Source of the DNA: Pseudanabaena sp. 'Roaring Creek'
GTDB taxonomy: Bacteria > Cyanobacteriota > Cyanobacteriia > Pseudanabaenales > Pseudanabaenaceae
Reading direction: 5' to 3'
DNA: 39,344 nucleotides
Assembly: GCF_001402795.1 (NCBI RefSeq)
Contig: NZ_LIRE01000047.1
Span: 1-39,344 of the forward strand
In this document: positions 5,404 through 37,800 of the stretch, one piece after another
Numbering within the stretch: the stretch's first letter is position 1
Layout of the letters: each line of letters begins with the position of its first letter
Position numbers and translations under genes: made by a program
Notes under the pieces: model-generated
Databases searched by the model: none
Seen by the model: only the letters and a program-made list of their open reading frames with translations
What the model was told of the DNA's origin: nothing

Positions 5404-5430
5404 TCCTCGCTTTGGATTGAGGAGCGAGGA
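5404..5430. terminator. GC-rich hairpin upstream of the MFS gene
   Basis: An eight-base perfect inverted repeat, TCCTCGCT/AGCGAGGA, with an 11-base loop. It lies between the MFS gene start and a larger palindrome. No uridine tract follows on either strand, so it may be a leader structure or part of a composite repeat rather than a real terminator. Confidence 0.35.
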
Positions 5431-5454
5431 ATAACGTTTCTGTATGACGTTAGT

Positions 5455-5509
5455 AAGTTATTCTGACATTCAAAAATCTAGCCCAGATTTTTGAATGTCA
5501 GAATAACTT
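5455..5509. repeat. Perfect 25-bp inverted repeat with 5-bp loop
   Basis: Arms at 5455-5479 and 5485-5509 are exact reverse complements, with AGCCC between them. It lies five bases beyond the PepSY stop codon. On the plus strand the right arm is followed by a T-rich run, so the structure could end transcripts entering from the left. On the PepSY strand no T tract follows. Such a long perfect stem is more than a simple terminator needs, so a small palindromic repeat element is an alternative. Confidence 0.75.
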
Positions 5510-5514
5510 TTTAT

Positions 5515-6003: not shown

Positions 6004-6231
6004 AAGTAACCTTGATTTATTGGTTTACGTTTCAAACTATAGAGATAAATAATCAAGAAGTTTGAAAGGTCGTATTCAAATCTTAAAAAGAATAGGGATA
6101 GCTATAAATCAATAGATATGGGAATTCTTTCTAAGTTCTTGATGATTGTGGGTTATTTTTTGAGGCGACACAAATTACGGAGTGAGATTCGTTTAGTGGT
6201 GACTTTAGACAAATCGCAGTTATAAAAGTTT

Positions 6232-6990: not shown

Positions 6991-7065
6991 GTTCTGAATG
7001 AATGTGATTCGGTTAATGTTGACACCTAATGCTTTTTTACTTATTAAATACTCTCTTTAAAGATT

Positions 7066-7947: not shown

Positions 7948-8052
7948 AATGGATAAGAACCCCATGTGATATTCAATGTCTTATAGCCTATCGAATATCG
8001 GAAGCAGGCTCTCCTGATAATAAAGATTTTATTAAAACGAGTGAATTTAATT

Positions 8053-8289
8053 ATGTGCAGTCGAGACAGTTTAGTGCTTAGGAATATTTCAGTATATATG
8101 GAAACATCTAACACTGAAATTGATCAATTAGCAGAGACTCTAGGAGGCTATTGCTATAAAAGCCAAGTGAGTGAACATGGCTTTTATCAATCGTTTTTCT
8201 TTGAGAAGGAAGCAAATGCCAAGCAGTTTTTTATAGATGTGTTTCGATTTCCTGAAGTAATTAGCGTTGGTTTTGATCAATCTCTATAA
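8053..8289 (+). CDS. Small hypothetical protein, probable beta-alpha-beta-beta-alpha-beta fold
   Basis: About 78 residues, not recognised. The predicted pattern is a strand (RNISVYME), a helix (TEIDQLAETLG), two strands (CYKSQVS, YQSFFFEK), a helix (NAKQFFIDVFRF) and a strand (ISVGFD), like a compact ferredoxin-type sandwich. Because the first strand lies before the internal ATG at 8098, the start was placed at the ATG at 8053; GTG at 8041 is also possible. No good ribosome site decides between them. It sits between uppP and the PAP2 gene on the same strand. There is no evidence for function. Confidence 0.5.
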   Translation: MCSRDSLVLRNISVYMETSNTEIDQLAETLGGYCYKSQVSEHGFYQSFFFEKEANAKQFFIDVFRFPEVISVGFDQSL

Positions 8290-8329
8290 AAAATCCTTTG
8301 GCTACACTAAAAGAAACAAAATTTACAGC

Positions 8330-8358
8330 ATTTCCCTAAATTATTGATTTTGGGAAAT
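8330..8358. other. Hairpin between the small protein and the PAP2 gene
   Basis: ATTTCCC (8330-8336) pairs with GGGAAAT (8352-8358), and AAA/TTT extends the stem inward after one mismatch. No clear T tract follows. It may be a weak terminator or a leader structure of the following phosphatase gene. Confidence 0.3.
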
Positions 8359-8408
8359 ATTACTTTCTAGTCATTTTTACTATCAAATAATCAGTCTCAA
8401 TATTTTCT

Positions 8409-9098
8409 ATGCAGCAATTAGTTAAGGTATGGATTAATCGCTTAAATTCTTGGAGCAGTTTTCGCGGTTCTAGTATTGGTCTAGTTAGTTTTGTTGGTTG
8501 TCTTGCACTATTAATGGTCTTGGGGTGGCTGTGTCAAGAGGTCTGGGAAAAAGAAGCTTTTAATTTTGACACTAATATTTTACTTTGGATTCATCAATCA
8601 GCAACCCCAATTTTAGATTCAATAATGCTCAATATTACAGGTTTAGCAGATCCACCAATGGTGGCTGCAATCTTCTTTGGTACTACATTCTGGCTTTGGA
8701 GAAAGCGAAAATATTCACAAATAAAAGTATTTGCGATCGCCTGTATAGGAGGGCTAGCTCTTAATGTGGGGTTGAAACTCTTTTTTGCTAAACCACGACC
8801 TCAACTATGGCATCAACTAATTGTAGAGACATCTTCTAGTTTCCCAAGTGGTCATGCTCTTGGAGCAATGGTTGTATATGGATTTTTAGCATATCTATTA
8901 GCAACGGAATTCCCTCAATCTTCTCGATTAATTTATACTGTAATGACTGGATTAATTTTATTGATTGGCTTAAGCCGTCTATATTTGGGAGTTCACTGGT
9001 TGACAGATGTGATTGCAGGTTATTTGGTCGGATTTTTGTGGGTGATTACTTGTATCTCGATCCTGAAATGTAATTTATCATCTCATGATGAAAATTAA
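8409..9098 (+). CDS. PAP2-family membrane phosphatase
   Basis: A 229-residue integral membrane phosphatase of the type 2 phosphatidic acid phosphatase superfamily, acting on lipid phosphates such as undecaprenyl pyrophosphate or phosphatidic acid. All three catalytic motifs are present: K123-x6-R130-P131, P146-S-G-H149, and S189-R190-x5-H196-x3-D200. About six membrane helices fit the family topology. Together with UppP 460 bases upstream it gives this region two unrelated lipid-pyrophosphatase families. The exact substrate cannot be told from sequence. It has an ATG start and is probably independently transcribed. Confidence 0.92.
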   Translation: MQQLVKVWINRLNSWSSFRGSSIGLVSFVGCLALLMVLGWLCQEVWEKEAFNFDTNILLWIHQSATPILDSIMLNITGLADPPMVAAIFFGTTFWLWRKRKYSQIKVFAIACIGGLALNVGLKLFFAKPRPQLWHQLIVETSSSFPSGHALGAMVVYGFLAYLLATEFPQSSRLIYTVMTGLILLIGLSRLYLGVHWLTDVIAGYLVGFLWVITCISILKCNLSSHDEN

Positions 9099-9227
9099 TT
9101 TTGCTTATTGCATTGGATTGATTGCCAACCAATGTTTTGCTTACTGCTGTAATTAGTTTTTTGACAGATACTGTTAGCTTTATGCTTGAGCCACAACTTT
9201 ATATATGTGAAACTGCATAATATTGAA

Positions 9228-9260
9228 TTTCATCCTGATTTCATTTTCTTGATCTAGAAT
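9228..9260 (+). promoter_or_regulatory. Direct-repeat box A and -10 before the oxygenase/two-component operon
   Basis: TTTCAT (9228-9233), five bases, TTTCAT (9239-9244), then ten bases and TAGAAT (9255-9260). The layout, with two half sites one helical turn apart and no -35, fits an activator of the OmpR/PhoB class. The spacer CCTGA is identical to that of the copy before the multicopper oxidase. The following operon encodes its own OmpR-type regulator, so autoregulation is likely. Confidence 0.75.
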
Positions 9261-9349
9261 ACAATCATTAATTTAAGACCCATATTAGAAAAGCTATCAA
9301 TCACACGTAAGGTATATAAATACGAATGAATGTGAGACTTGTATAAACA

Positions 9350-9958
9350 ATGACAACGCAGAGAGATGACTGGTTTCCTACTCCGATTTGGCACTTTGAT
9401 ATTCCAAATTATGAGCAGTTAAACAAAAAATTACTTCAGGCAATTTATGTTGAAAAGCAAAAAGACAATCAAGGTGTCAGTTGGTCAAATGGAATAGGAT
9501 GGCATAGCAAAGACTATTTACATCAACGTCCAGAATTTCAAGATATTGCCCAGATCATCGTAACTAATGCACTAGAGTCTGGAGAAGAAATTGGCTTTGA
9601 CTTGAAAAGGTTCACAATGATCCTTGGGAATTGTTGGGCAGTTGTAAATCCAAAGTTTGCCTTTAATTTTGTACACAATCACCCTAACTCAGTACTTAGT
9701 GGAGTCTATTATGTGAAAGCTGCCGAAAACTGCGGCGGTATTTTCTTTAAAGATTCTCGTGATGTTGCTCATATGTTTATGCCAGCACTTACCGAACTGA
9801 CTCCTTGGACGCTCCAAAAAATTACTTATAAAGCAACAGAAGGTAAGATGATAATTTTTCCAAGTTGGTTAAATCATGGTGTAGAACCAAATCTCAGCGA
9901 TGAAGAGCGTGTTTGCATTAGCTTTAATATCAGTATGACTTATTTGACATCAGTATAA
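9350..9958 (+). CDS. Putative 2OG-Fe(II) oxygenase (TIGR02466-like)
   Basis: A 202-residue protein resembling the TIGR02466 group of putative 2-oxoglutarate/Fe(II) dioxygenases. It has the double-stranded beta-helix signature: NFVHNHPNSVLSGVYYVK with H109/H111, FFKDSR with D135, FPSWLNHGV with distal H176, and R187 before SFNIS as candidate 2-oxoglutarate ligand. Which of H109 and H111 binds iron is uncertain. The substrate is unknown. The gene is 59 bases upstream of a response regulator and kinase on the same strand, and the shared direct-repeat promoter box lies 105 bases upstream, so it probably belongs to the metal-responsive operon. No signal peptide is present, so it is likely cytoplasmic. 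Confidence 0.82.
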   Translation: MTTQRDDWFPTPIWHFDIPNYEQLNKKLLQAIYVEKQKDNQGVSWSNGIGWHSKDYLHQRPEFQDIAQIIVTNALESGEEIGFDLKRFTMILGNCWAVVNPKFAFNFVHNHPNSVLSGVYYVKAAENCGGIFFKDSRDVAHMFMPALTELTPWTLQKITYKATEGKMIIFPSWLNHGVEPNLSDEERVCISFNISMTYLTSV

Positions 9959-10017: not shown

Positions 10018-10707
10018 ATGAGAATTTTGCTAGTTGAAGATGAAGAGGATCTTGGTAAGGCTCTACAACGGAGCTTGAAGCAAGAAAAATATGTTGTTGA
10101 TTGGGTACAGGATGGTACGGAAGCATGGAGATATCTTTCAAGTCCTGAAGTAGATTATGTGTTAGCAATTGTAGATTGGATGTTGCCAAGTTTATCAGGG
10201 CTGGAAATATGTAAGCGCTTGAGAGCGCAGGGTAATTCACTACCAGTTTTAATGTTGACCGCGAAAGATCAGATGGAAGATCGCGTGATGGGTTTGGATT
10301 CAGGGGCGGATGATTACCTCGTTAAGCCGTTTGGTATGGTTGAACTGATGGCGCGGCTGAGAGCGTTGCTACGGAGACCGACTCAAGTTCAGTCACAAAT
10401 CTTACAGGTGGGGAATTTGATTCTTGATTATGGGAAGTCAACAATTGCGATCGCTAATCAAAGTGAGATCCCTGAAGGTCTGATGCTTACAACTAAAGAA
10501 TTTCAATTATTAGAATACTTTATGCAGCATCCTAATCAGATTCTTACCCGTGACCAGATTATGAATCGGCTATGGGAATTTCAATCCGAACCTGCTAGTA
10601 ATGTCGTAGCAGCACAGATTCGTCTATTAAGAAAGAAATTAGCAGAATATAGTTGTGATATCGGGATTGAGACAATCTATGGTTGGGGATATCGCTTGAA
10701 TTCATGA
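10018..10707 (+). CDS. OmpR-family response regulator, CopR/NrsR/RppA-like (system 2)
   Basis: A 229-residue regulator with receiver-domain phosphoacceptor D53, conserved K103 in LVKPF, and a C-terminal winged helix ending in GWGYRLNS. It is close in sequence to the regulator at 22507 (both begin MRILLVEDE and share EKYVVDW and VVAAQ-RLLR). The group matches cyanobacterial metal-responsive regulators of the CopR/NrsR/RppA type. Its stop codon overlaps the ATG of the kinase gene (ATGA). It is the best candidate to bind the TTTCAT direct repeats in this window, because one stands before its own operon and others before adjacent export genes. The inducing metal (copper or nickel) is inferred from neighbours only. 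Confidence 0.93.
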   Translation: MRILLVEDEEDLGKALQRSLKQEKYVVDWVQDGTEAWRYLSSPEVDYVLAIVDWMLPSLSGLEICKRLRAQGNSLPVLMLTAKDQMEDRVMGLDSGADDYLVKPFGMVELMARLRALLRRPTQVQSQILQVGNLILDYGKSTIAIANQSEIPEGLMLTTKEFQLLEYFMQHPNQILTRDQIMNRLWEFQSEPASNVVAAQIRLLRKKLAEYSCDIGIETIYGWGYRLNS

Positions 10708-12041
10708 ATCACAATAAAATCTTTTTTGGAGCGCGTTTACATCTTGCAGGTTGGTATGCAGGAGTGATGGGAATCATTTTGACTCTATCAGGAGTCGGTA
10801 TTTATCAGGTGATGGCTCATGCTCATTGGCAAGCAGTCGATCGCGAGTTAGAGTCCGTAGCTGGGACATTGCATGATAGTTTAGAACCTTTGCTAATAGA
10901 AAGCGATCGCATTTCTCCCAGCGTCCAGCAAATTCTTCCTAATCTTTGCGTCATCGGCGAGAAATGTGAGCAAGAATCTTCTGCAAGACATATTATGGGT
11001 GCAATCCAACAAGATAGCTTCTATGCATTATTTCTGACTCATTCTGGAACCTTGATTGCCACAGTCGGAAAACCACCCATTGGAGTTGTCCCTCGAACTT
11101 CACAAGAGACTTGGCAAACAATTGAGGATCGCAAGGGAAATCGCTATCATCAAATCTCGCTTTTACTTAAAAACAACAGTGGAAAGTCATGGGGATATCT
11201 ACAAGTAGGGCGATCGCTTGCTGACTATGATCATCATCTCGAACAATCAAAATTGATATTGATCGTGAGCTTACCGATCGCTTTTTTGATTGTGAGCATT
11301 GCAAGTTGGTATTTAGCGGGTATAGCGATGAAACCAGTTTATTCTTCTTATCGACAAATCCAGCAATTTACGGCTGATGCTGCCCATGAACTGCGGACTC
11401 CGCTTGCAGCAATTCGAGCTACAGTTGAATCTACTCTTAGTAGTGATGCAATTTCCGAACTAGAGTCAAGAGATATTTTACAAACAATCAATCGCCAAAC
11501 AGTGCGCCTTTCAGAACTGGTGCAAGATTTACTTCTGCTTTCGAGGATGGATTTACAACTAATTGCTTTACAAAAGCAGGTTTGCTGTTTGAATGAAATT
11601 GTCAGTGATTTAGTTGAAGAAGTTTCGGCACTTGCTATTCAGTCGGATATCGATCTAAAGCTGAAAATTGATAATGAATCTGCAATTTATGTCAATGGTA
11701 ACGAAGATCAACTCTATCGACTAATTCTCAATATTCTGATCAATGCGATTCATTACACTCTTGAGCAAGGCAAAGTTGAAATATCTCTTGAGCAAATCGA
11801 ACACCATGCGATCATCCAAATTCAGGATAATGGAATTGGTATAAGTTCCACTGATTTACCCAACATCTTCGATCGCTTCTATCGAGTAAGTAGCGATCGC
11901 TCTCGCAAAAAAGGTGGATCGGGACTAGGACTGGCGATCGCAATGGCGATCGCTAAAGCTCATGGGGGAAATATTCAAGTCAAAAGTGAGTTTGCAGAAG
12001 GTAGTACATTCACAATTGAGATTCCTTCTATTTTTTGTTAG
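10704..12041 (+). CDS. Sensor histidine kinase, CopS/NrsS-like (system 2)
   Basis: A 445-residue kinase. The start is set at 10704, where ATG overlaps the regulator's TGA, rather than at an upstream in-frame TTG. TM1 covers about residues 16-38 and TM2 about 183-205. The periplasmic domain between them holds H57 in AGTLHDSLEP and a cysteine pair C82/C88; both are at identical positions in the kinase at 23199, suggesting a conserved metal or redox site. Phosphoacceptor H228 (AAHELRTP), the N box (ILINAIHYT), G1 (DNGIGI), the F box (FDRFYR) and G2 (GSGLGLAIA) are all present. It probably senses periplasmic metal and controls export genes in the window. Confidence 0.92.
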   Translation: MNHNKIFFGARLHLAGWYAGVMGIILTLSGVGIYQVMAHAHWQAVDRELESVAGTLHDSLEPLLIESDRISPSVQQILPNLCVIGEKCEQESSARHIMGAIQQDSFYALFLTHSGTLIATVGKPPIGVVPRTSQETWQTIEDRKGNRYHQISLLLKNNSGKSWGYLQVGRSLADYDHHLEQSKLILIVSLPIAFLIVSIASWYLAGIAMKPVYSSYRQIQQFTADAAHELRTPLAAIRATVESTLSSDAISELESRDILQTINRQTVRLSELVQDLLLLSRMDLQLIALQKQVCCLNEIVSDLVEEVSALAIQSDIDLKLKIDNESAIYVNGNEDQLYRLILNILINAIHYTLEQGKVEISLEQIEHHAIIQIQDNGIGISSTDLPNIFDRFYRVSSDRSRKKGGSGLGLAIAMAIAKAHGGNIQVKSEFAEGSTFTIEIPSIFC

Positions 12042-12045
12042 GACA

Positions 12046-12078
12046 TTTCATCTTCATTTCATAACAATCCGTCATAGT
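12046..12078 (+). promoter_or_regulatory. Direct-repeat box B and -10 before the DUF2808 gene
   Basis: TTTCAT (12046-12051), CTTCA, TTTCAT (12057-12062), then ten bases and a -10-like CATAGT (12073-12078). The spacing is identical to box A. The predicted start lies about 30 bases before the DUF2808 ATG. The box starts only a few bases after the kinase stop codon. Confidence 0.72.
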
Positions 12079-12117
12079 TGAAATGTCAGCGTTTGAATTT
12101 GAATTAAAGAGTCAATC

Positions 12118-12600
12118 ATGAAAAAATTAATGTTTCTCGGCACACTATTAGCAGCAACATTTGCATCTGTGTCCGCCACACTCGCCACTCCATCTTTGCC
12201 CAATTTATCCGCACCACACATTGATGCAACTGGAGCAATACCCAATAACAAGAGCGCATCAGCACCCACCTATTTCTTTCAAGTTCATGTCCAAGGACAT
12301 ACCCTTTCGAGTGTTACCATTGACTTACCTGAAGGGATTAAGGTTGGCGGGACTATTAATGTAGTCGATCAACTCAATCGTTCTATAGGAGCAACCATCA
12401 CGCCACAGGGTAACAAAGCTACAGTCTCTTTTGCTCAGCCAATCGATACTGGTACAACTCTAAACTTTTATATGCGTGATATATTAGTTGCTGGAAATCA
12501 AAAAGGCTTGATCCATCTAATTCCTGTTTCTGCAAAATTCGCAAATTTAGATGCAGATATTCCACTTGGACTTGTTCGCATTCAAACCTACGGTAAGTAA
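12118..12600 (+). CDS. Secreted DUF2808 protein
   Basis: A 160-residue protein with a signal peptide (about 1-23, ending near TLAT) and a DUF2808-type beta-rich domain. The domain begins at YFFQVHVQGHTLSSVTIDLPEGIKV, a sequence pattern common in this mostly cyanobacterial family, and continues through the PID-TGTTLNFYMRDI and GLIHLIPVSAKF segments. No enzymatic residues are recognisable. The protein is probably periplasmic or secreted. It has its own direct-repeat box, sits directly after a metal-type kinase and is followed by a strong hairpin, so it appears to be a single-gene unit of the same regulon. Its role is unknown. Confidence 0.82.
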   Translation: MKKLMFLGTLLAATFASVSATLATPSLPNLSAPHIDATGAIPNNKSASAPTYFFQVHVQGHTLSSVTIDLPEGIKVGGTINVVDQLNRSIGATITPQGNKATVSFAQPIDTGTTLNFYMRDILVAGNQKGLIHLIPVSAKFANLDADIPLGLVRIQTYGK

Positions 12601-12627
12601 AAGATTATCTCACACCAAATTGGGAGG

Positions 12628-12660
12628 TAAAACGACAACAGCTTTGCTGTTGTCGTTTTA
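12628..12660 (+). terminator. Strong rho-independent-type hairpin after the DUF2808 gene
   Basis: A 15-base perfect stem (12628-12642 with 12646-12660) around a three-base loop TTT; the right arm ends in TTTTA. It is 27 bases after the DUF2808 stop and before box C. It separates the DUF2808 unit from the adaptor gene and may work in both directions. Confidence 0.85.
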
Positions 12661-12686
12661 CATTTGGCAAAAATGAAACATTAAGA

Positions 12687-12719
12687 TTTCATACCTATTT
12701 CATTTTGTTGTGAGATGCT
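12687..12719 (+). promoter_or_regulatory. Direct-repeat box C before the full-length RND adaptor gene
   Basis: TTTCAT (12687-12692), ACCTA, TTTCAT (12698-12703), then ten bases and a weaker -10-like GATGCT (12714-12719). The adaptor ATG is 53 bases further on. Confidence 0.68.
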
Positions 12720-12771
12720 TGGTACAAAAGCAACTGCGATAAATTTTGAGTGTAAAAATTAGATTAAGCAA

Positions 12772-14337
12772 ATGAGCATATCCCCAAAACTTCGCACTCC
12801 CATTGTTAAAGTCCTTCTTAGTTTGATTTTGCTATCTAATCCTGCGATCGCATTGGCTCATGCTGGACATGGAGATGAATTTAAGGGAAATAACACAACT
12901 CAGATTACGGGAATAACTGTAGAGGATGAAGTTGCTAAATCTCTTGGAATTAAAGTAGAAACTGTAAAGCAACAGCCCCTAAAATTTGGTATTCAAACCA
13001 CAGGGCAGATTGAGACTTTACCGAACCAACAAGTAAAAGTGACTACTCCGATCAAAGGAACAATTGTTGATTTGCTAGTAGAGCCAGGGGCTTTAGTTCA
13101 AGCAGGTCAACCTGTTGCTATTCTATCTAGCCCAGAACTAGCAGATTTACGAGTTAGTGCGCTGGAGAAAAAAGCAGATGCAAGTGGAAATGTGCTAACT
13201 TCTGAATCAAATTTACGTTTAGCCCGACAAAATCTCGAACGTCAGAAGCTACTTGTTGAATCAGATATCCGTCAGGCTCAGACTGAATTAAATCTAGACA
13301 AAGAACGTTATGAGCGCGATAAGGAATTATTAGAGAAAGGTGCGATCGCCAGACGACAGTTACAAGAGTCAGAAGCAAAATTTGCTGCTGCAAGAGCCGC
13401 ATTAACTAAGGCGGAAAGTCGCTTACCTTTGCTAGAAGCACAAGCACAACTAGAAAGAGCAGAAGCTGATGTACAAGTATCTTCGATTAGAGTCGATCTC
13501 AGTACAGCAGCTTACTCGGCGCGTTTGAATCAGTTAGAGGCTAGTGCAAACTCTAATGGCACGATTACGATATCTGCACCAATTGATGGAGTTGTCAGCG
13601 ATCGCGAAGCGACGATTGGAGAATCAGTTGATGCAGCAGGCAAGCCTTTAATGACCATCGTCAATGATGAAAGGGTTCTTGCTACTGCCAACATTTACGA
13701 AAAAGATATAAATAAAATCCGTATTGGTCAACCCGTACAGGTGAAAATTGCAGGACAGCCCTCGACTACAGTTTTTCAAGGCAAGGTGACAGTGATTGGT
13801 ACTACCGTAGAAGGACAAAGCCGTATTGTTCCAGTGAAAGCTGAGATTGGCAATGTGAAGGGACAGTTAAAGGCAGGGATGTTTACCAATATCGAAATCC
13901 TCACAGATAGTGTTTCTGTACCAACCTTAGCGATTCCTGCTGCGTCAGTAGTAGAAGCAAATGGCAAGCAGTTAGTATTTGTCCAAAATGGTAAGTCTTA
14001 TCAGCCCGTTGATGTGACTTTGGGAAGGACTTCGGGGGAGTTAGTGGAAGTTACAAGTGGATTGTTTGAAGGCGATCGCATTGTTACTCAACGCGCTAGT
14101 CAACTATACGCCCAATCTCTACGTGGTGACAGTAAACCTAAAGATGAGAAAGTAGATGCTGTAATATCTGCACCTAATTCTGCAAATGGACAGATTGCTT
14201 GGTGGGCAATTATCTTAGCAGGAGGTATTGGCGGCGGTGGGATTGTTGCGGCTTCGTTTTGGCTAGGAAGGCGATCAGGTACAAAAATGGTGATTTTGAG
14301 TGAGCCTTTAAGTACAAGCGATCGCCTTGAGAGATAA
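12772..14337 (+). CDS. RND efflux periplasmic adaptor (CusB/CopB/NrsB-like membrane-fusion protein)
   Basis: A 521-residue membrane-fusion protein linking an inner-membrane heavy-metal RND pump to an outer-membrane channel. In order: signal peptide (about 1-29), a His-containing start of the mature chain (HAGHGDEF, 30-37), the first lipoyl half (88-122), a long coiled-coil hairpin (about 122-262), the second lipoyl half (263-298), a beta-barrel (300-380) and a membrane-proximal domain (385-455). A C-terminal transmembrane helix (about 475-498) with a basic cytoplasmic tail is unusual for adaptors of proteobacteria. No RND gene adjoins it; the likely partner is the pump at 34827, whose promoter has the same box. 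Box C lies 69 bases upstream. Confidence 0.9.
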   Translation: MSISPKLRTPIVKVLLSLILLSNPAIALAHAGHGDEFKGNNTTQITGITVEDEVAKSLGIKVETVKQQPLKFGIQTTGQIETLPNQQVKVTTPIKGTIVDLLVEPGALVQAGQPVAILSSPELADLRVSALEKKADASGNVLTSESNLRLARQNLERQKLLVESDIRQAQTELNLDKERYERDKELLEKGAIARRQLQESEAKFAAARAALTKAESRLPLLEAQAQLERAEADVQVSSIRVDLSTAAYSARLNQLEASANSNGTITISAPIDGVVSDREATIGESVDAAGKPLMTIVNDERVLATANIYEKDINKIRIGQPVQVKIAGQPSTTVFQGKVTVIGTTVEGQSRIVPVKAEIGNVKGQLKAGMFTNIEILTDSVSVPTLAIPAASVVEANGKQLVFVQNGKSYQPVDVTLGRTSGELVEVTSGLFEGDRIVTQRASQLYAQSLRGDSKPKDEKVDAVISAPNSANGQIAWWAIILAGGIGGGGIVAASFWLGRRSGTKMVILSEPLSTSDRLER

Positions 14338-16238: not shown

Positions 16239-17633
16239 CTAATGGCTATGTAGATGATGAATATCAGTGTAGTGAGCATGACGATGTTTGGTTGGCGAAT
16301 GCTCATGAGTATGAGTATGTGGTTCGGTTAGTAACATATCTTCAGGATGATCATGTTCATGATGTGGATCGTGAGTATGTTTGTGTTCATGCCAGAGATA
16401 TTCATGTTGATGTTCATGGGTTTTAGGAGATAACAATATCTGAACCACTGACAGAAGGGCAAAACCGATCAAGCTTCCGTAAAGAAATGACGTATTGCCC
16501 TGACTTCCTAGCCAACCTGCAATGGGATAGGCGATTGCCCACCATAGATGGCTCCAAGCAAAATGTGCGCCATAAACTCGCCCTTGAAGGTTTGCAGGAA
16601 TCTGATCAGCGATGAGAGTCTGAGTCGGTAGATTTACAAAAACCTGTCCCATTCCTGCGATCGCCCAAAGAAATATCAATGGCACTAAACCGACATAATT
16701 AGCGGGTAGAATTGCGAGAGTAATTATAATTGCACCAAACAAAACCAGAACTGTACGTTCCCATTTCTGGTTAATTGCTCCTACAGTTACCGCCGCTATA
16801 GTTGCGCCAATGCCAAAAGCAGCCATTACCCAGCCATATTCTAAACTGCTTAGTTTGAGAGTTCCTTTTATGTAGCCTACGGTATTAACTAAAATCTGCG
16901 CTCCTGCGATTGATGCTACAAATTGGAGCATCAGAGCATAGCGAATAAAAGCATTAGCAAATAAACGTGTGGTTCCTTCTTTAACATCACCAATAATTGT
17001 AACGATCGTTCCTTTTGTCGATTTTTCTGAGTTCTCATTTCGCTCTACTCTCAGTTGATTTGGAAGTGTGAAAATCAGAATTGCGGCGAGAAAGAAAGAA
17101 ATTGCATCCAGAAAAAATATCTGTCTTGCGCCAATCCATGCCGATACACTGCCAGCAATGCCAGGGCCTAAAACGCCTAATAATTGATAAGTAGCAGCAG
17201 AAAGGGCGATCGCCTGAGCATATTCAGCTTTACCTGTGACTAAGGGAATCGTGGCTTGATAAGTTGGCGTAAAAAAAGCATTGAATACATTAAGGGCAAA
17301 GACTAGAACATAAATCTGCCAAACTGCATTTACAAAGGGCATGATTCCCACAATCACCATTCGCGCAATATGGGTTATGACGAGAATTAGTTTGCGATCT
17401 AGGCGATCGGCGATCGCACCTGCAATGGGAGAGAGGATTACAAAAGCTGTTACACGCAAGGTCAAAGCTACAGAAAGCACTACAGCACTATCTTTTCCTG
17501 CTAGTTCAAAAGCTAGTAAAGCCAATCCTAACCACGTTAGAGCATCACCAAATAAGCTGATAGTCTGAGCAGTATAGAGTCTGGCAAAAGTTGAATTATT
17601 GAGGCATCGTAATGGTGAGGGAACCTGTGGCAT
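16239..17633 (-). CDS. nrsD: NrsD/NreB-like MFS nickel exporter with histidine-rich tail
   Basis: A 464-residue MFS permease: about twelve helices over residues 1-400, then a hydrophilic C-terminal tail (about 403-464) packed with His, many in HxH or HDH pairs (for example HEHKHTHDPHHEHDH). The same arrangement is known in NrsD of Synechocystis and NreB, which export Ni(2+). The N-terminal motif GDALTWLGLALLAFEL and the loop ADRLDRK fit the MFS group. The gene lies downstream of a lysozyme-like gene and the RND1 pump on the same strand, as expected for an nrs-type cluster. Cobalt or another divalent metal is possible as substrate. The tail may act as metal buffer or sensor. Confidence 0.85.
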   Translation of the reverse strand: MPQVPSPLRCLNNSTFARLYTAQTISLFGDALTWLGLALLAFELAGKDSAVVLSVALTLRVTAFVILSPIAGAIADRLDRKLILVITHIARMVIVGIMPFVNAVWQIYVLVFALNVFNAFFTPTYQATIPLVTGKAEYAQAIALSAATYQLLGVLGPGIAGSVSAWIGARQIFFLDAISFFLAAILIFTLPNQLRVERNENSEKSTKGTIVTIIGDVKEGTTRLFANAFIRYALMLQFVASIAGAQILVNTVGYIKGTLKLSSLEYGWVMAAFGIGATIAAVTVGAINQKWERTVLVLFGAIIITLAILPANYVGLVPLIFLWAIAGMGQVFVNLPTQTLIADQIPANLQGRVYGAHFAWSHLWWAIAYPIAGWLGSQGNTSFLYGSLIGFALLSVVQILLSPKTHEHQHEYLWHEHKHTHDPHHEHDHPEDMLLTEPHTHTHEHSPTKHRHAHYTDIHHLHSH

Positions 17634-17671: not shown

Positions 17672-18412
17672 TTAGAAAGACTCAATTTTGTTAATCATTT
17701 GAGATCCACTTATTTTACTCGTAGAGGCAAGTTCTTCAGCTAAAAATTTACGATAAAGCTTGGGTAAAAAAGGTGTCATCAAATTATCTTCAAGCCCACT
17801 GCCTAGACTAGTCCAAACATCAGATAACTCAATTAACGCATCTTCAACCCGATCTTTTTTGAGCAAAGTTAAAATATCCACATTCCATTGATGATGATCT
17901 TTGAGCCATCGATAGACAACGATATCTTGGTACTCAGGCTCAAAACTATAGGTTATGCCATCTATGGTTTCAGATGGATTGGGATGATATTTAGAAGCTT
18001 TTTCGATCCAAGTAGAGGTAAGAAATTGATACCTCCCAGAGGCGGTGGAGCATTTTCCTTTATTTACGTCAGTTTTAATCGGAATGCATTGATTAGGATG
18101 TTGACTTAGATCGTGAACATGATCTCCACCATATAAAAGCGCATAGGAGTTCTTACCACTGGACTCGCTTGCAGAAATAGTTCTCATCAAAGCTCGAATA
18201 TAGGGATCGCCATTAGACATAGCTAGTGGTGGCACATCTTCAGATACTTTCAGATAGTTAACGTGTCTTATGACGTTCTGGGCATTTTGGAGAAACCAGA
18301 GTAAGGCAAATAGGCTCAGAATTGAAGCGATGTCCCAAATCTTTTGCTTTCTACTGTATACCTTATCTTCGCCATCCTTATTATGTTTTTGTTTTGAACG
18401 ATAAAAGAACAT
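17672..18412 (-). CDS. Membrane-anchored lambda-endolysin-like muramidase (GH104-like)
   Basis: A 246-residue protein with a short basic N terminus, a transmembrane anchor (about 27-44) and an extracytoplasmic domain resembling phage lambda R endolysin, a lytic transglycosylase that cleaves peptidoglycan. Matching features are the catalytic-type Glu E83 in ISASESSG, the YGGDHVHDLSQHP segment, SGRYQFL (126-131), and DVWTSLGSGL near the C terminus. Two cysteines (109, 121) flank an insert and might form a disulfide. It lies between the RND1 operon and nrsD, 38 bases upstream of nrsD and probably cotranscribed with it. No holin or phage genes are nearby. A local wall-remodelling role is inference. 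Confidence 0.82.
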   Translation of the reverse strand: MFFYRSKQKHNKDGEDKVYSRKQKIWDIASILSLFALLWFLQNAQNVIRHVNYLKVSEDVPPLAMSNGDPYIRALMRTISASESSGKNSYALLYGGDHVHDLSQHPNQCIPIKTDVNKGKCSTASGRYQFLTSTWIEKASKYHPNPSETIDGITYSFEPEYQDIVVYRWLKDHHQWNVDILTLLKKDRVEDALIELSDVWTSLGSGLEDNLMTPFLPKLYRKFLAEELASTSKISGSQMINKIESF

Positions 18413-18523: not shown

Positions 18524-21500
18524 CTATGATTTAACTAATACTTGTGGGTTCTCATTCACCTCGAATTGCTTCTCAAGGGTGACAAGTTTTTGTTTGGGAA
18601 CTAACCACTTACCAAACTTGGCATAGATGGCAGGAATCACCAACAAAGTTAGGGCTGTAGAGGTAAATAGACCACCGAAAACCACGATCGCTAAGGGTTG
18701 AAGAATTTCATTTCCTGCTTCTTTAGAGAGTACCAAGGGTAGCGTTCCTAATGCCGAGGTAAGTGCGGTCATTAGGATGGCATCGATTCGCTCCAAAGAA
18801 CCTTTCATAATCACCCCTTTAAGTGGCATTCCTTGCGCGAACTTGCTGTTGTAGTTATCAACTAGCAACAAGCCATTACGAACAGCAACTCCAAACAGGG
18901 TAATAAAACCGATAAGGGAGGCAATGGAAATCACACCACCAGTAAGCGCGATGGAAATAATCCCACCGACTAAAGCTAGAGGTAAGTTGATCATGATGGC
19001 GATCGCAGCAGGGATAGATTTCACCGAAAAGTACATCAATATGAAAATCACGATCGCGGCGAGAATACTGAACACTAACAGGTTATTAGTAGCTCGCTCC
19101 TCTGATTCAAACTGTCCGCCATATTGGATAAAGTAACCGTTGGGCAGTTTTACTTTTTGCTGAATCTGAGCTTGAATGTCTTTGACAACGTTGTTGAGAT
19201 CGCGACCAGCAACGTTGGTGGAAACCACGATTAGCCGTGAGACATCTTCTCGATTGATCACATTTGCGCCCATACCGTAACTAATCTGAGCAACTTCACC
19301 GAGGGATATCTGTTGCCCTGTCGGGGCGATCAGAGGGATGGCGCGAATATCATCGAGGCTATTACGAGATGATTCTTGTAATAGGACTAAAGTATCAACT
19401 AGCTGCTGATTTTCTGATAGTTGCGAAACGACGCGACCATTCAGAGCAGTTTCGACAACATTGGATATCTGTTCCATACTCAATCCATAGGTTGCCGCCG
19501 CCGTGCGGTTGTATTGAATCTGGACTTGACGGATTGGTAATTGCGGTTCTAGTTGCAAATCCACAAGCCCAGCAACAGGCTCGATCGCATCGCGTACTTG
19601 TTCACCAATGGTTCGCAGTTGAGCGAGGTCAGAGCCATAGATTTTGATCGCGATCGCACTTCTGACACCCGATAGCACTTCATCCATACGGTGCGAAATA
19701 AATCCACCAATATTCGGAGCTACCCCCGGTAATTTATTGAAGGCTTCCCGCAATTGCTTGATGCTTTCTTCCCGATTTTTCAGGGCAGCATCGCTTAATT
19801 CCACATCCACATGAGCCATGCTTACGCCTGCACCATCTGCATCCCCAGGGGCGCGTCCTGCTCTCACTTGCACCCACTCGTATAGTGGATTGCCCTTGAG
19901 CGAGTTGGATAGTGCCATCCCTGCGCGATTGGTCATATCTAGGGATACTCCAGGGAAAAGTACCATCGAGTTAACCATAGACTTTTCTCGAAATTCGGGC
20001 AGAAAAACTCGTCCGAGGGAGGGAACAATCACGCTCGTTGCAACTAGGGCGGCAAGGGCGAAACCGAGAATAATCATCGGCGATCGCATCGACAAACTTA
20101 AAAATGGACGATATAAGCGTTCTGCCCAGCGTGATGCAAATGTATTTTCTTGAGGTAGAGTGTGATTTGCGAGGAGAATAGCGCACAAAGCGGGAGTTAA
20201 AGTCATTGCCACAAATAGAGAGGCACATATTGACAACAAATAGGCAAGCCCCAATGGTGCAAAAATCCGCCCTTCTACTCCAGTCAAGCTAAAAATTGGT
20301 GCAAATACAACAATGATGATCACCGTTGAGAAGATCACTGCCATCCTTACTTCCACAAAGGCATCAAAGATTACCTGAAAAGAATGTTTGGGAGTGCTTT
20401 GAGCTTGATTGGTTCGGAGTCCGCGATAGCAATTCTCCATATAAACGATCGAGTCATCAACAAAAGCCCCCAGAGCAACAACTAATCCCCCTAAGGTCAT
20501 GGTATTGATGCCCAAGCCTAACGCTTTCATAAATAGCAATCCAACCAATAATGATAACGGAATCGCCGTTAGTGTAATTACAGTAGTACGCCAGTTCATC
20601 AAAAACAGCAGCATGATCACCGATACAATCACAATGCCTTCTATGAGCGAAGTACTTACATTTTTAATTGCCGCATCTATAAAGTTAGCTTGGCGGAAGG
20701 TGCGAGCGACTTGCACATCGGCAGGAAATGTCGTTTGCAAAGACTGCATTACCGCTTCTACATCCTTGGTGACAGTGGGCGTATCCACATCAGGCTGCTT
20801 GTTAATCATCAGCACCACCGCAGGTTTACCGTTAAAGCTGCCATCGCCACGCTTTAAAGCTTTTCCCGTTTTTATCTCCGCGACATCTCTCAGCAGAATT
20901 GGTTTGCCATTATCAACCTTGACTACTGATTGCTGTAAGTCTTGAATTGATTTGACTTTGCCAATACCGCGTACCAATAATTCCTGACCACCACCAATCT
21001 GGAAGCCAGCAGGTGCGTTAGAATTTGCGCCTCTAGCTGCATCAGTAACTTCAGTCAGAGAAACATTCAGCGATCGCAATTTGGCAGGATTGACTAGCAC
21101 CTGATTCTGACGTTCATCACCACCATAAATTGTCACCTGAGTCACCCCTGGGACGGATAAAATCTGGTTTCTCAGATTCCCCTCAACCAACTGGCGCAGA
21201 TCCATTAGCGAAGTTCTGCCCTGACCATTCACCGTAAAGGCATATTGCAAAATAGTTCCCAGTGGCGAAACTAAAGGCGAAATTTCTGGCGGATGTACCC
21301 CTTCAGGAAGCTGATTTGTCACCTGCTGAAGTCGCTCTGTAACCGATTGTCTTGCTCGGTAAATATCAGCATTTTGATCAAATACCACATTCACCATCGA
21401 CAGCCCCACCTTAGAGGACGATCGCACAATCGTTACCCCTGGCAAGCCATTAACCGCACTTTCAATCGGGATTGTAATTTGTGACTCCACTTCATCGGGC

Positions 21501-21682
21501 GCAAGCCCAGAAGCTTCAGTGTGAATATCGACTTGAGGTGGTGCAAATTCAGGAAATACATCCAGAGGCATCTGCGTCACAGTAAAGACTCCCCACAAGG
21601 TGATTAAAATCGCACAAACGACAATCAGCCATCGCTGCACGATTGAGCCTTTAAGAATCTGGTTCAAAATTGAGTTAGACAT
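18524..21682 (-). CDS. Heavy-metal RND efflux pump (CzcA/CusA/NrsA-like), RND1
   Basis: A 1052-residue inner-membrane proton antiporter of the heavy-metal RND family. TM1 is near 16-35, with two large periplasmic loops and a helix block around 350-530 and 870-1030. TM4 carries the acidic signature GAFVDDSIVYMEN expected for proton relay. In the periplasmic pore region there are several Met (REKSMVNSM, GVSMAHVDVEL); one aligns roughly with a CusA copper-ligand Met. It starts five bases after the short adaptor gene. The neighbourhood (nrsD-like gene, divergent two-component system) suggests an nrs-type nickel system, while the Met residues would allow a soft metal. The specificity is therefore open. 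Confidence 0.92.
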   Translation of the reverse strand: MSNSILNQILKGSIVQRWLIVVCAILITLWGVFTVTQMPLDVFPEFAPPQVDIHTEASGLAPDEVESQITIPIESAVNGLPGVTIVRSSSKVGLSMVNVVFDQNADIYRARQSVTERLQQVTNQLPEGVHPPEISPLVSPLGTILQYAFTVNGQGRTSLMDLRQLVEGNLRNQILSVPGVTQVTIYGGDERQNQVLVNPAKLRSLNVSLTEVTDAARGANSNAPAGFQIGGGQELLVRGIGKVKSIQDLQQSVVKVDNGKPILLRDVAEIKTGKALKRGDGSFNGKPAVVLMINKQPDVDTPTVTKDVEAVMQSLQTTFPADVQVARTFRQANFIDAAIKNVSTSLIEGIVIVSVIMLLFLMNWRTTVITLTAIPLSLLVGLLFMKALGLGINTMTLGGLVVALGAFVDDSIVYMENCYRGLRTNQAQSTPKHSFQVIFDAFVEVRMAVIFSTVIIIVVFAPIFSLTGVEGRIFAPLGLAYLLSICASLFVAMTLTPALCAILLANHTLPQENTFASRWAERLYRPFLSLSMRSPMIILGFALAALVATSVIVPSLGRVFLPEFREKSMVNSMVLFPGVSLDMTNRAGMALSNSLKGNPLYEWVQVRAGRAPGDADGAGVSMAHVDVELSDAALKNREESIKQLREAFNKLPGVAPNIGGFISHRMDEVLSGVRSAIAIKIYGSDLAQLRTIGEQVRDAIEPVAGLVDLQLEPQLPIRQVQIQYNRTAAATYGLSMEQISNVVETALNGRVVSQLSENQQLVDTLVLLQESSRNSLDDIRAIPLIAPTGQQISLGEVAQISYGMGANVINREDVSRLIVVSTNVAGRDLNNVVKDIQAQIQQKVKLPNGYFIQYGGQFESEERATNNLLVFSILAAIVIFILMYFSVKSIPAAIAIMINLPLALVGGIISIALTGGVISIASLIGFITLFGVAVRNGLLLVDNYNSKFAQGMPLKGVIMKGSLERIDAILMTALTSALGTLPLVLSKEAGNEILQPLAIVVFGGLFTSTALTLLVIPAIYAKFGKWLVPKQKLVTLEKQFEVNENPQVLVKS

Positions 21683-21687
21683 CGAGC

Positions 21688-22380
21688 TTAAACGTCTCCT
21701 TGATCTTTGGAACGAGAGTTAAGCTTTAGTTTTTTGCGGCCGCTTTGACGATTTTTGAGTAGAAAAATTCCACCACCGATCAATGCCAATGCACTACCGC
21801 CAACAACTACACCACCAACTAGCAAGTTGCTTTCTTGCGACAATACACCTTGATCGCTGTGAGCAATTCCTTTAATGTGGGCTTGATTATGTTCTGCTGT
21901 ACTTTGGGGAGTGGCGATCGCGGTTGCAACTGCATTAGGACTAGCGACCGTACTGGGACTAGCTACTGGATCGGCTTTCTGAGTCTTGCGAGATTGGGCA
22001 TAGAGAGACAAACTACCCTGAGTCACCAGTTTTTCGCCTACTGATAGACCATCAATAACTTCAATATTTTCTCCCTGAGTCTTACCAGTCTTGACTTCCA
22101 CTGGCTCATAGAAGTTTTTGTACTGCACAAATACAAGTTGTTTACCATCAGCCTCAACCAAAGATGTTACTGGAACCATCACCCCTGCGGCACTTTTTGC
22201 AGTTTGAGCGATCGGTGTAACAATAATCCCAAACTGTTGATCGGTTTCGGAATTTATCTGCACGCGCTGAATCTTGCCTTTAGACTGAAATTCATCTCCA
22301 TGTCCGACATGGGCAAATACAGGGCTGGCGACAGCTAAAATTGCTGCTAGGACAGCACTAACTAATGGCAATTTTTTCAT
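21688..22380 (-). CDS. Shortened RND adaptor protein lacking hairpin, lipoyl and barrel domains
   Basis: A 230-residue protein. The first part (signal peptide to about 23, then HVGHGDEF and a short segment to about 60) matches the start of the 521-residue adaptor at 12772. Residues 62-130 (VPVTSLVEADGKQLVFVQ...LYAQS) match its membrane-proximal domain. Roughly 315 residues covering both lipoyl halves, the coiled coil and the barrel are absent, with no frameshift. A low-complexity Ala/Thr/Pro linker and a C-terminal transmembrane helix (186-207) with a basic tail follow. It is in an operon with RND1, five bases apart. It may be a functional minimal adaptor or the product of an in-frame deletion. 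Confidence 0.87.
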   Translation of the reverse strand: MKKLPLVSAVLAAILAVASPVFAHVGHGDEFQSKGKIQRVQINSETDQQFGIIVTPIAQTAKSAAGVMVPVTSLVEADGKQLVFVQYKNFYEPVEVKTGKTQGENIEVIDGLSVGEKLVTQGSLSLYAQSRKTQKADPVASPSTVASPNAVATAIATPQSTAEHNQAHIKGIAHSDQGVLSQESNLLVGGVVVGGSALALIGGGIFLLKNRQSGRKKLKLNSRSKDQGDV

Positions 22381-22457: not shown

Positions 22458-22506
22458 CGCAAATTGTTTCGCTACAATCAAGCTCGTGATTAATTTACTT
22501 AGATCC

Positions 22507-23202
22507 ATGCGAATTTTGCTTGTAGAAGACGAAATAGACTTAGGAACAGCGATTAAGCAGGTTTTAATTTGTGAAAAGTATGTAGTGGATTGGGTAACTG
22601 ATGGCGCTCAGGCTTGGTACTATCTCGAAAATCAATGGACAGACTATTCTGTGGCAATTTTTGATTTGCTCCTGCCCAAACTATCGGGGCTTGAGCTATG
22701 TAAAAAACTGCGATCGCAACAAAATCCATTGCCCGTACTCATGCTCACGGCTCTAGGACAGCCCGAAAATCGGATCGCAGGGCTAGATTCAGGAGCTGAT
22801 GACTATTTGGTTAAACCGTTTGTGATGGAAGAACTTTTAGCAAGGTTACGCGCATTGCAAAGGCGATCGCCAAATTTGCAACCACAAATTCTCACCATCG
22901 GCAAATTTTCTCTGGATTATGCCAATAACGCACTATTAGTGACGGAATCTGATCAAGTATCACAGGTAATTCCCTTAACAACAAAAGAGTTTCAGATTCT
23001 CACTTACCTCATGCAAAATGCTGATCGCATTATTTCAGGCAGCAAAATTCGCAATCAACTTTGGGATCTCAATGAAGAGCCAATCAGCAATGTAGTTGCA
23101 GCGCAAATGCGTTTATTACGTCGTAAATTATCAAGCTATGGCTGTGAGTGTCCGATTGAAACGATTCCCAGTCAAGGCTATCGGTTTAACACGCAGCCAT
23201 GA
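22507..23202 (+). CDS. OmpR-family response regulator, NrsR/RppA-like (system 3)
   Basis: A 231-residue regulator; the ATG at 22507 was chosen over an upstream in-frame GTG because it gives the standard MRILLVED start. The receiver domain has D53 and K103 (LVKPF), followed by a winged-helix domain ending in SQGYRF. It is a close relative of the regulator at 10018. The gene is divergent from the short adaptor/RND1 operon, the arrangement of nrsRS and nrsBACD in Synechocystis, so local control of that operon is likely. The stop codon overlaps the kinase ATG (ATGA). Confidence 0.92.
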   Translation: MRILLVEDEIDLGTAIKQVLICEKYVVDWVTDGAQAWYYLENQWTDYSVAIFDLLLPKLSGLELCKKLRSQQNPLPVLMLTALGQPENRIAGLDSGADDYLVKPFVMEELLARLRALQRRSPNLQPQILTIGKFSLDYANNALLVTESDQVSQVIPLTTKEFQILTYLMQNADRIISGSKIRNQLWDLNEEPISNVVAAQMRLLRRKLSSYGCECPIETIPSQGYRFNTQP

Positions 23203-24569
23203 ACACCCATCTATTATTTCGCCGTAGCCGTACTCGTCTCGCACTTTGGTATGCGGGGGTGATGGCAGTGATTTTGAGTTTGTCGGGATTTAGTATGTAT
23301 CGCTTTCTCATTCAATCCAATTGGGAAGCGATGGAACGGGAAATGGAATCGATCGCAGGGACTTTGCACGATAGTTTAGAACCGATGTTACCTGCTTCTG
23401 AAGAACCAACCGCAATTTTACGGCGGATTTTGCCAGAACTCTGTTTAGTAGACCAGCCTTGTAATGTCAGTCCTACTCTAATTCAACGGCATACTACTGG
23501 CATTAGCGATCGCAGTACATATTACATCCGTCTCTTCAATTATCAAGGTAAACTGATCGCCTTTTCACCCAGTCAAATACTTAAAGAATTACCTTCAAGT
23601 TTATCTGATCAGCCTTGGCAAACTTTTCAAAGTGCTAATGGAATCCGTTATCATCAGTTCACGATTATTCTCCATAGCGATGATGCCAAGAGTCATCAGA
23701 GACAGCAACATAAAGTCAAAACTTCTTGGGGCTATTTGCAAATTGGGCGCACCTTAGAACCCTTTGATGCAGAAGTAACGCGAATCAAAATAATTTTGGC
23801 GATTGGATTGCCGATCACTTTGATTTTAATCGCTATTTCTAGTTGGTGGCTATCTAAACTAGCAATGCAACCGATTTACAAATCCTATCAACAACAGCAA
23901 CAGTTCACCGCCAATGCTGCCCATGAATTGCGATCTCCTCTAGCCAGTCTCCTAGCTACTGTCGAAGCAATCTTACGAGTACCACAAGCTAATCTCGAAG
24001 ATACGCAAACTATGCTCTATAAAGTAGAAAAGCAGGGAAGGCGCTTGAGTAATTTAATTGCTGACCTACTGCTGCTGTCTAGTCTTGAGCAAAATTCATC
24101 TCCAAAAAAATTTCAATCCTGCTGTTTAAATGATTTAGTCAGCGACTTGACCGAAGAAATGTCAGAACTTGCCACTGCATCGGATATTCACTTAACTAGT
24201 CAAGTTCCTTCTACAGAAATCTATGTACTTGGTAATGAATCACAACTTTATCGACTGGTATCAAATCTCATTGCTAATGCAATTCAGTACAGTCCTGCTC
24301 AAGGATCTGTGCATATCAGTTTAGAAGTCCAAGACCACAATGCTGTTATCGCCGTGAAAGATAAAGGGATTGGCATTCCTAAGGCTGAGCAAAATCGAAT
24401 TTTTGATCGCTTTTATCGAGTTGATGGCGATCGCTCTCGCAAAACGGGAGGGACGGGTTTAGGCTTGGCGATCGCACAGGCGATAGTGCATCATCACCAA
24501 GGTCAGATCACTGTCAAAAGCGATCTCAGTAAAGGTAGTTTATTCATGATTCACTTACCCTTTCATTAA
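23199..24569 (+). CDS. Sensor histidine kinase, NrsS/CopS-like (system 3)
   Basis: A 456-residue kinase homologous over its full length to the one at 10704. TM1 is about 14-37 and TM2 about 197-218. The periplasmic sensor domain keeps H57 and the cysteine pair C82/C88 at the same positions and has extra histidines (H97, HSDDAKSH-QRQQH around 159-171) that the other kinase lacks. These could tune metal preference. Phosphoacceptor H242 (AAHELRSP), the N box (NLIANAIQYS), G1 (DKGIGI, with Lys in place of the usual Asn), the F box (FDRFYR) and G2 (GTGLGLAIA) are present. Its start overlaps the regulator stop. Confidence 0.92.
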   Translation: MNTHLLFRRSRTRLALWYAGVMAVILSLSGFSMYRFLIQSNWEAMEREMESIAGTLHDSLEPMLPASEEPTAILRRILPELCLVDQPCNVSPTLIQRHTTGISDRSTYYIRLFNYQGKLIAFSPSQILKELPSSLSDQPWQTFQSANGIRYHQFTIILHSDDAKSHQRQQHKVKTSWGYLQIGRTLEPFDAEVTRIKIILAIGLPITLILIAISSWWLSKLAMQPIYKSYQQQQQFTANAAHELRSPLASLLATVEAILRVPQANLEDTQTMLYKVEKQGRRLSNLIADLLLLSSLEQNSSPKKFQSCCLNDLVSDLTEEMSELATASDIHLTSQVPSTEIYVLGNESQLYRLVSNLIANAIQYSPAQGSVHISLEVQDHNAVIAVKDKGIGIPKAEQNRIFDRFYRVDGDRSRKTGGTGLGLAIAQAIVHHHQGQITVKSDLSKGSLFMIHLPFH

Positions 24570-34826: not shown

Positions 34827-37800
34827 ATGCTCAATGCCGTTGTCAAATGGTCGATCGCGCAGCGCTGGCTAGTAGTGATTGCCTCAATCTTAATCTTGCT
34901 ATGGGGATTTCGGGTATTAACCCAGATGCCCCTAGATGTATTTCCTAACTTTGCACCGCCGCAAGTGGAGATTCAAACTGAGGCGACGGGGCTAGCTCCT
35001 GAAGAAGTAGAATCGCTGGTGACAAGACCGATTGAGAGTGCCATTAATGGAACCCCTGGTGTAGAAAAGGTGCGTTCATCTTCGGCAGTGGGTATTTCGG
35101 TTGTGAAAGTGATATTCACTTGGGATACAGATATCTATCGGGCGAGGCAGTTAGTTACAGAGCGATTGCAGCAAGCTCAGAGCCAATTACCTAAAGGTGT
35201 GGGTATACCGCAGATCTCTCCGATTAGTTCTCCAATTGGGGCGATCGCTAAATATGCTTTCACGATCGACGAAGGTGGTAAAACTAACTTAATGGAAGTA
35301 CGGCGCATCGTGGATTGGCAGGTAAAAAATCGGCTGTTAGCAGTTCCAGGGGTAACACAGGTTGTAATTTTTGGTGGTGATATTCGTCAGTATCAGATAT
35401 TAGTCGATCCAGTTAAATTGCAACAATATGATGTGACCTTATCAGAAGTTACCGAAGCAGCCCGAAAAGCAAATGTGAACGCGGCGGGTGGATTCTTGAC
35501 TAGTCCAGATCGCGAACTCTTGATACGTGGTATTGGACGGATTGAATCAGCAGAGCAATTGCAGAAATCGGTAATTAAATCTAAAAAAGGAGTGCCAGTA
35601 TTACTCAGTCAAGTTGCCGATGTCAGAATTGGTGCGGAGCTAAAACGGGGAGACGGGAATCTCAATGGCAAAAAATCGGTTGTGGTAATTGTGAACAAAC
35701 AGCCGAACGCTGATACTCCTTCAGTTACCAGAGCCGTAGAAATAGCGATCGCGGAAATTAAACAAGGACTACCAAGCGATGTAAAAGTCGAAACGACTTT
35801 TCGCCAAGAAGAATTTATCGAGGCATCCCTTAAAAATGTTGAGGAATCCTTGCGGGATGGCACGATTATTGTATCCGTCGTTTTGATTCTATTTTTGATG
35901 AACTGGCGCACCGCCGTAATTTCCTTGAGTGCGATTCCGATTTCGTTATTGCTAGGAATGATGGTGCTGTCATGGACGGGACAGGGCATCAACACGATGA
36001 CCTTGGGGGGATTGGCGGTAGCGATCGGTTCGGTAGTAGATGATGCGATCGTGGATATGGAAAATGTCTATCGCCGTCTCCGTGAAAATCAAATTGCAGG
36101 CACACCAGTGCCGCCGTTGGAAGTAGTTTTTAACGGCTCAGTGGAAGTTCGTGTTAGTGTTCTCTTTTCGACTGTAATTATTGCGGTCGTATTTGCGCCA
36201 ATTTTTGCCCTTTCTGGAGTGGAAGGTCGAATTTTTACGCCGATGGGTGTTGCTTATTTACTCTCGATTGTTGCATCGACGCTAGTAGCACTAACTCTAA
36301 CTCCTGCTCTTTGTGCCTTGCTCTTGGTAAATCGCCCTTTACCTCCTGATGAGACTTGGTTAGCGCATAAATCTCAACAAGTTTATCGTCCTGCTTTAGT
36401 CTTTGCCATTCGTCATCCCAGTATTGTTTTGGGAGTAGCGATCGCCGCTTTGATTGCTTCGATGATTATCTTGCCATCCCTCGGTCGAGTATTTTTACCC
36501 GAATTTCAAGAGCGATCGCTAGTAATTTCCACAGTTCTCTATCCTGGGGTTTCACTGGAAACTACTAATCAGGTTAGTTTGGTTGTGCAAGAACATCTTA
36601 AAGATGATAAACACTTTGACGCTTTGCAACTGCGATCGGGACGCGCCCCCGGGGATAGTGATGTGGGCGGCGTTAACTTTGCTGAGCTAGATGTGGAACT
36701 CAGTGAATCAGGTGTAAAAAAACGTGAGGAAAGCGTCGAAATTCTTCGCAAAGAATTTGCAAAAATCCCAGGGGTTGCGGTAAATATTGGCGGATTTATT
36801 TCCCATCGGCTTGATGAGGTTCTTTCGGGTGTGCGAAGTGCGATCGCCGTCAAGATCTTTGGTGCTGATTTAGAGCAATTGCGAACCATTGGTCAACAAG
36901 TACAAGCCGCGATGAATAACGTCAATGGAATCGTAGATTTGCAAGTAGAACCACAAGTACCGATTAAACAATTACAGATTCGCTTCGATCGTGATGCTGC
37001 ATCTCGTTACGGCTTGCAAGTCGGCGATTTGGCAGAAACTATTGAAACGGCTCTGAATGGCAATATTGTCTCTCAGGTTTTGCAACAACAGCAAGTATTT
37101 GATTTACTTGTGTGGCTAAAAGAAGATTCGCGCAATAATCAGGAAACTATCAGCAATCTATTGGTAGATGTGCCTGATGGAAAGAAAGTGCCACTTTCCC
37201 AAGTTGCTAAGGTTTCCTTTGGTGAGGGACCCAATACAATTAATCGTGAAAATGTTTCGCGGCTAATTGTCGTATCAGCCAATGTGAACGGTCGCGATTT
37301 AGGCTCGGTGATTAAAGATATTCGCGATCGCATTAAGACTCAAGTGCAATTACCCTCTGGTTATTACATTCAATATGGCGGTCAGTTTGAATCTCAAGAA
37401 CGCGCTACTGAGACTTTACTATTTGCAGGGGCGATCGCTTTTATTGCCATTACCATACTGATTTACTTCGCAGTTAAATCCATTCCCGCCACGTTCATGA
37501 TTATGATTAATCTGCCACTTGCGCTAGTGGGGGGTGTAATATCTGTAGCGCTTGGAGGTGGCATTATCTCAGTCGCTTCGATGGTAGGATTTATCACGCT
37601 TTTTGGAGTTGCGACAAGAAATGGATTGCTGTTAGTGGATAACTACAACACCAAATTAGCAAAGGGAATGCCATTGCAAACGGTACTAGTGGAAGGTTCC
37701 CTAGAGCGTCTTGTTGCCATCCTAATGACCGCCCTCTCTTCAGCCTTGGGCATGGTTCCTCTGGTTATTGGCACTGGCGCAGGCAAAGAGATTCTACAAC

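Follow-up and report, generated by a model that had tools for sequence, protein, structure and literature searches.

A cyanobacterial RND adaptor of the NrsB type reduced to its membrane-proximal domain

A 39,344-nt stretch of Pseudanabaena sp. 'Roaring Creek' DNA (contig NZ_LIRE01000047.1, hereafter the window) encodes a minimal RND adaptor of 230 residues, which keeps the membrane-proximal domain (MPD) of a full adaptor and lacks the other three domains. This form is ancient, is widespread among Cyanobacteria and is maintained by selection beside a single clade of heavy-metal efflux (HME) pumps. The reading that we favour, and consider probable, is that the protein is an old internal-deletion adaptor of the NrsA nickel/cobalt pump that presents metal to the pump and gates it without building a duct.

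Gene structure and operon context

The gene occupies positions 21688-22380 on the minus strand and runs from ATG to stop over 230 codons with no internal stop. Its product consists, in order, of a signal peptide, the motif HVGHGDEF directly after it (22288-22311, minus strand), the MPD (residues 38-134; 21979-22269, minus strand), a linker of 59 residues with three histidines (residues 131-189; 21814-21990, minus strand), and a predicted C-terminal membrane helix with a hydropathy of 2.1 (residues 190-208; 21757-21813, minus strand). A preliminary description of the sequence had already listed these elements except the linker, giving the motif as HxGHGDEF; the reading frame and its features were as described, but the strand was not, as the gene lies on the minus strand. 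The motif is a candidate metal site, and in the form HxGH/N it was counted in all 38 short adaptors as well as being visible in alignment A1. The same alignment shows a linker motif, HAQADAxGIPHSHD, that is conserved in many freshwater short adaptors and missing from those of Synechocystis and the marine strains, where the linker histidines are absent. A Pfam search with the short protein returned no significant family, and TIGR00999 (CzcB/NccB) matched its C-terminal part only, at 45 bits, which is below the family cut-off of 319. No sigma-70 promoter was found by consensus search, and CopR-like TTCAT repeats in the window were below chance expectation.

Only 5 nt separate the stop codon of the short adaptor from the start of RND1 (18524-21682, minus strand), an NrsA-type HME pump (TIGR00914, 793 bits) that falls in the NrsA clade, so the tight coupling to an intact RND gene reported earlier was borne out. 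Downstream on the same strand are an NrsC-like protein, assigned by position and homologues (17672-18412; its same-position homologue carries the annotation glycoside hydrolase family protein), and an NrsD-like MFS permease with 22 histidines in its last 60 residues (16239-17633). Divergently transcribed on the plus strand are an NrsR/RppA-type response regulator (22486-23202; NF041734, 376 bits) and an NrsS/RppB-type histidine kinase (23199-24569; NF041735, 683 bits), both above their NCBIfam cut-offs of 250 and 400, respectively. An identical gene order is annotated on plasmid pSYLC of Synechocystis PCC 6714, where the short protein is labelled hypothetical, and on pPg_05 of Pseudanabaena galeata, where it is labelled a cobalt transporter. 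In Synechocystis, nrsBACD is under nrsRS control, and the operon is reported to be Ni2+-inducible and required for Ni2+ tolerance (PMC4284471). Based on the gene order, the divergent nrsRS pair and the NrsC and NrsD neighbours, the short gene is therefore identified from its sequence context as nrsB of the nickel/cobalt operon nrsBACD. The preliminary description was right to see a genuine minimal adaptor tied to RND1, but missed that it belongs to this known operon. No difference was found between the window protein and Synechocystis NrsB, for which PCC 6714 and another Synechocystis genome were compared: gene order, divergent nrsRS, the His-rich tail of NrsD and the short form itself (approximately 220 residues) are all shared.

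Domains lost relative to a full adaptor

A full-length, CopB-like adaptor of 521 residues is also encoded in the window (12772-14337, plus strand) and served as the comparison protein. The short-adaptor profile matched it in two colinear pieces, with profile positions 9-64 corresponding to residues 12-69 and positions 67-154 to residues 383-469, so approximately 313 residues are missing in frame, in good agreement with the figure of about 315 proposed previously. The absent segment, approximately residues 70-382 of the full protein, comprises the beta-barrel, the lipoyl domain and the hairpin, and profile match, residue mapping and models place the junction at residues 57-66 of the short protein (22183-22212, minus strand). 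In the AlphaFold2 model of the short adaptor, helix 44-49 and strand 53-56 are followed by the elements from strand 67-70 to helix 123-132; in that of the full adaptor, helix 52-58 and strand 61-64 are followed by the barrel, lipoyl domain and hairpin (71-381) and then by the elements from strand 385-389 to helix 442-451. The order of secondary structure flanking the gap is thus identical in both proteins.

Between residues 41 and 130 the short-adaptor model has a pLDDT that is for the most part around 90 or higher. Using VIA-align, model residues 38-134 superposed on the two ends of CusB from the CusBA complex (Z 12.2, 2.2 Å over 97 residues), and the model also matched the MPDs of ZneB, BesA, AcrA and MexA. 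Judged against the four-domain RND adaptor, the short protein therefore has the MPD, as seen in the model and the structural alignment, and has lost the beta-barrel, lipoyl domain and hairpin in both sequence and model. The top Foldseek match was 5A4G, a SilB construct that likewise contains only an N-terminal metal site and the MPD; that protein is a laboratory construct for Ag+/Cu+, whereas the NrsB arrangement is natural.

Distribution and evolutionary history

At least 25 of the 386 cyanobacterial genomes sampled have the short-adaptor ORF, a minimum estimate since scoring was limited to few candidates in each genome; beyond Cyanobacteria, sampling covered plasmid records only. Short homologues range from Pseudanabaena through the Nostocales to small-genome Cyanobiaceae-like members, and in almost all of the loci inspected a heavy-metal RND gene lies immediately downstream. 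Homologues of the same layout beside RND genes, which the preliminary description had advised looking for, are thus present across Cyanobacteria, and the relatives at this position are short rather than full-length, ruling out a recent deletion confined to this strain. The dN/dS of the window gene, measured against three close relatives, is 0.13-0.17; the gene consequently gives no sign of decay, as had been claimed, and a pseudogene was ruled out. The loss of domains relative to a full adaptor might in itself suggest a decaying or recently deleted protein without function, and in two loci (L039 and L069) the short-adaptor gene and the pump gene appear to be interrupted. With a layout that is constant across Cyanobacteria, an intact frame and this low dN/dS, we regard such an explanation as extremely improbable; the short adaptor is under selection and is no recent accident.

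Several other candidates were set aside. Apparently uninterrupted matches on Leptolyngbya, Kovacikia and Cupriavidus plasmids turned out to be full adaptors or, in Cupriavidus, a frame that extends into hairpin and barrel sequence, and a 217-residue frame in another genome (G293) was a fragment of a full adaptor. Among the short forms, a Chondrocystis plasmid carries two in tandem (136 and approximately 220 residues) ahead of the pump gene (L087, 9484-10594), and a second short adaptor of genome G022 (L094, 8942-9526; 194 residues) has no clear C-terminal membrane helix.

For 88 distinct HME pumps, the adaptor directly upstream was short in 38 and full in 43, with none within reach in 7. A short adaptor was directly upstream of every NrsA-clade pump examined (36/36), and related CopA-like pumps had a full adaptor in nearly all cases. 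In the pump tree the 36 short-adaptor pumps form one clade, NrsA (SH-aLRT 100), and adaptor state changes twice, compared with 29 times when states were shuffled. Two pumps with short adaptors (adaptor genes at 8294-9028 of L085 and 7947-8573 of L097) fall inside the CopA-like clade, a conflict with the pump tree that points to re-pairing or to a second origin. In the adaptor tree, which is based on approximately 130 columns and was built without long branches, all short forms make up one group (100/95), and placing these two adaptors with the full adaptors of their pump relatives was rejected (AU p 0.005). Although the pump tree needs two state changes, the adaptor tree unites the short forms, so one shortening followed by later re-pairing is the simplest history and two independent origins were not favoured. 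Since the outgroups have full adaptors, internal domain loss from a full adaptor is the likely direction of change.

Constraint on the docking domain of NrsA pumps

In AcrAB, the DN and DC subdomains of the pump funnel are held by the barrel of the adaptor, whose MPD rests against the porter domain and the base of the funnel (PMC6975555). A pump whose adaptor lacks the barrel would therefore be expected to show relaxed constraint on its funnel. With domain borders placed by eye from sequence landmarks, in a test that was not pre-registered, the ratio of funnel to porter variability was 1.84 for NrsA pumps, as opposed to 1.09 for pumps with a full adaptor, a difference matched by 3 of 988 circular shifts. 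By subclade, the ratio was strongest in marine NrsA pumps (1.94) and was 1.65 in freshwater NrsA pumps, compared with 1.21 and 1.14 in two full-adaptor subclades; the freshwater group did not differ significantly from one of the latter (161 of 988 circular shifts). The docking (funnel) domain of NrsA pumps is thus less conserved than that of full-adaptor pumps. The funnel hairpins are retained.

Relation to full adaptors and outer-membrane ducts

The main rival to an adaptor working alone is a mixed ring, comparable to TriABC, in which each pump protomer would have NrsB at one of its two adaptor sites and, at the other, a full adaptor encoded elsewhere that would reach TolC. RND pumps do have two unequal adaptor sites, giving an adaptor-to-pump ratio of 2:1 (PMC6975555), and in two marine loci (L079 and L080) the apparent operon order is short adaptor, pump, full RND adaptor, the last being a 399-residue protein immediately behind the pump gene. 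In the first of these (4501-9455) the short adaptor has 209 residues and the full one matches TIGR01730 at 129 bits. Close relatives of the window full adaptor, defined by E at most 1e-80, occur in 15 of the 36 genomes with the short form, including this one, but are absent from the other 21, so the full adaptor is no obligatory partner. The cooperation between the two window adaptors that was suggested earlier does not, in general, hold. The full adaptors pair with another pump clade, and the weaker constraint on the NrsA funnel also argues against a second, barrel-bearing adaptor there; for these reasons we consider the mixed ring unlikely, though it deserves more weight than any other alternative.

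The window full adaptor belongs to a CopB-like group that goes with CopA-like pumps, and it is probably the partner of RND2 (34827-37958, plus strand), a CopA-like HME pump approximately 20 kb away. In another genome (L020) a relative of the full adaptor with 55% identity and a 96% identical RND2 share one locus, and the metal genes that separate the two in the window may therefore be an insertion. A second RppA/RppB pair and then a DUF2808 protein come before the full adaptor, the whole group spanning 10018-14337. No outer-membrane factor gene was found within the window; TolC-type genes on other contigs of this genome gave two strong matches and one weak match. General RND or ABC adaptors are encoded elsewhere in almost all short-form genomes and could supply a duct.

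Proposed role of NrsB

A metal-handling role as a pump accessory, as suggested earlier, is plausible. According to the reading we favour, an old internal deletion left the signal peptide, the N-terminal His motif, the MPD, the linker and the C-terminal membrane anchor. NrsB would dock through what remains on the porter domain of NrsA, its terminal histidines (the HxGH motif) would offer Ni2+/Co2+ to the entry cleft of the pump, and it would gate the pump. It would form neither ring nor tube and would recruit no TolC itself, so that the metal would presumably be released into the periplasm.

It is also conceivable that NrsB acts as a metal chaperone or sensor with no stable docking on the pump, delivering Ni2+ to NrsA, for example, or reporting to NrsS. 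The protein is small, its HxGH motif is conserved, and many freshwater members have a His-bearing linker, all of which would suit such a function. Yet it has kept the complete pump-docking MPD fold documented by the CusB superposition, and its gene is almost always immediately ahead of a pump gene, which makes this explanation improbable.

Comparison with known adaptors and implications

CopB of the Synechocystis CopBAC system and the window full adaptor resemble NrsB in the N-terminal motif, the MPD and the C-terminal membrane helix, but CopB-like adaptors retain barrel, lipoyl domain and hairpin and are paired with CopA-like pumps. CusB, ZneB and CzcB share the MPD fold and the role of HME adaptor, but are full four-domain proteins. 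Among the reduced adaptors described so far, BesA from Borrelia burgdorferi (4KKS-4KKU) comes closest; it has an MPD of the same fold and lacks the hairpin only, keeping its lipoyl and barrel domains (PMC3807786, PMC8277102), and it has been cited as a challenge for models of tip-to-tip assembly (PMC4446572). The reduction of NrsB goes beyond that of BesA. The operon and the gene name are already known. The literature searched on nrsBAC, which covered work later than the original 2000 paper, describes it as an RND system and does not mention the shortness of NrsB or its MPD-only architecture, and a 2026 adaptor review contains no mention of NrsB or of Cyanobacteria.

An RND adaptor is usually viewed as a bridge that takes cargo to TolC. 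A natural adaptor consisting of the MPD only, preserved across Cyanobacteria alongside one clade of pumps, would mean that the gating and metal-presenting role can be separated from the building of a duct. It may even be, though we put this at somewhat less than an even chance, that a whole HME RND clade works with adaptors incapable of forming a tube and limited to metal presentation and gating, and the pump would then be an inner-membrane machine without an exit duct of its own. As the NrsBA pair is small and the operon has been worked on genetically in Synechocystis, the question is directly testable.
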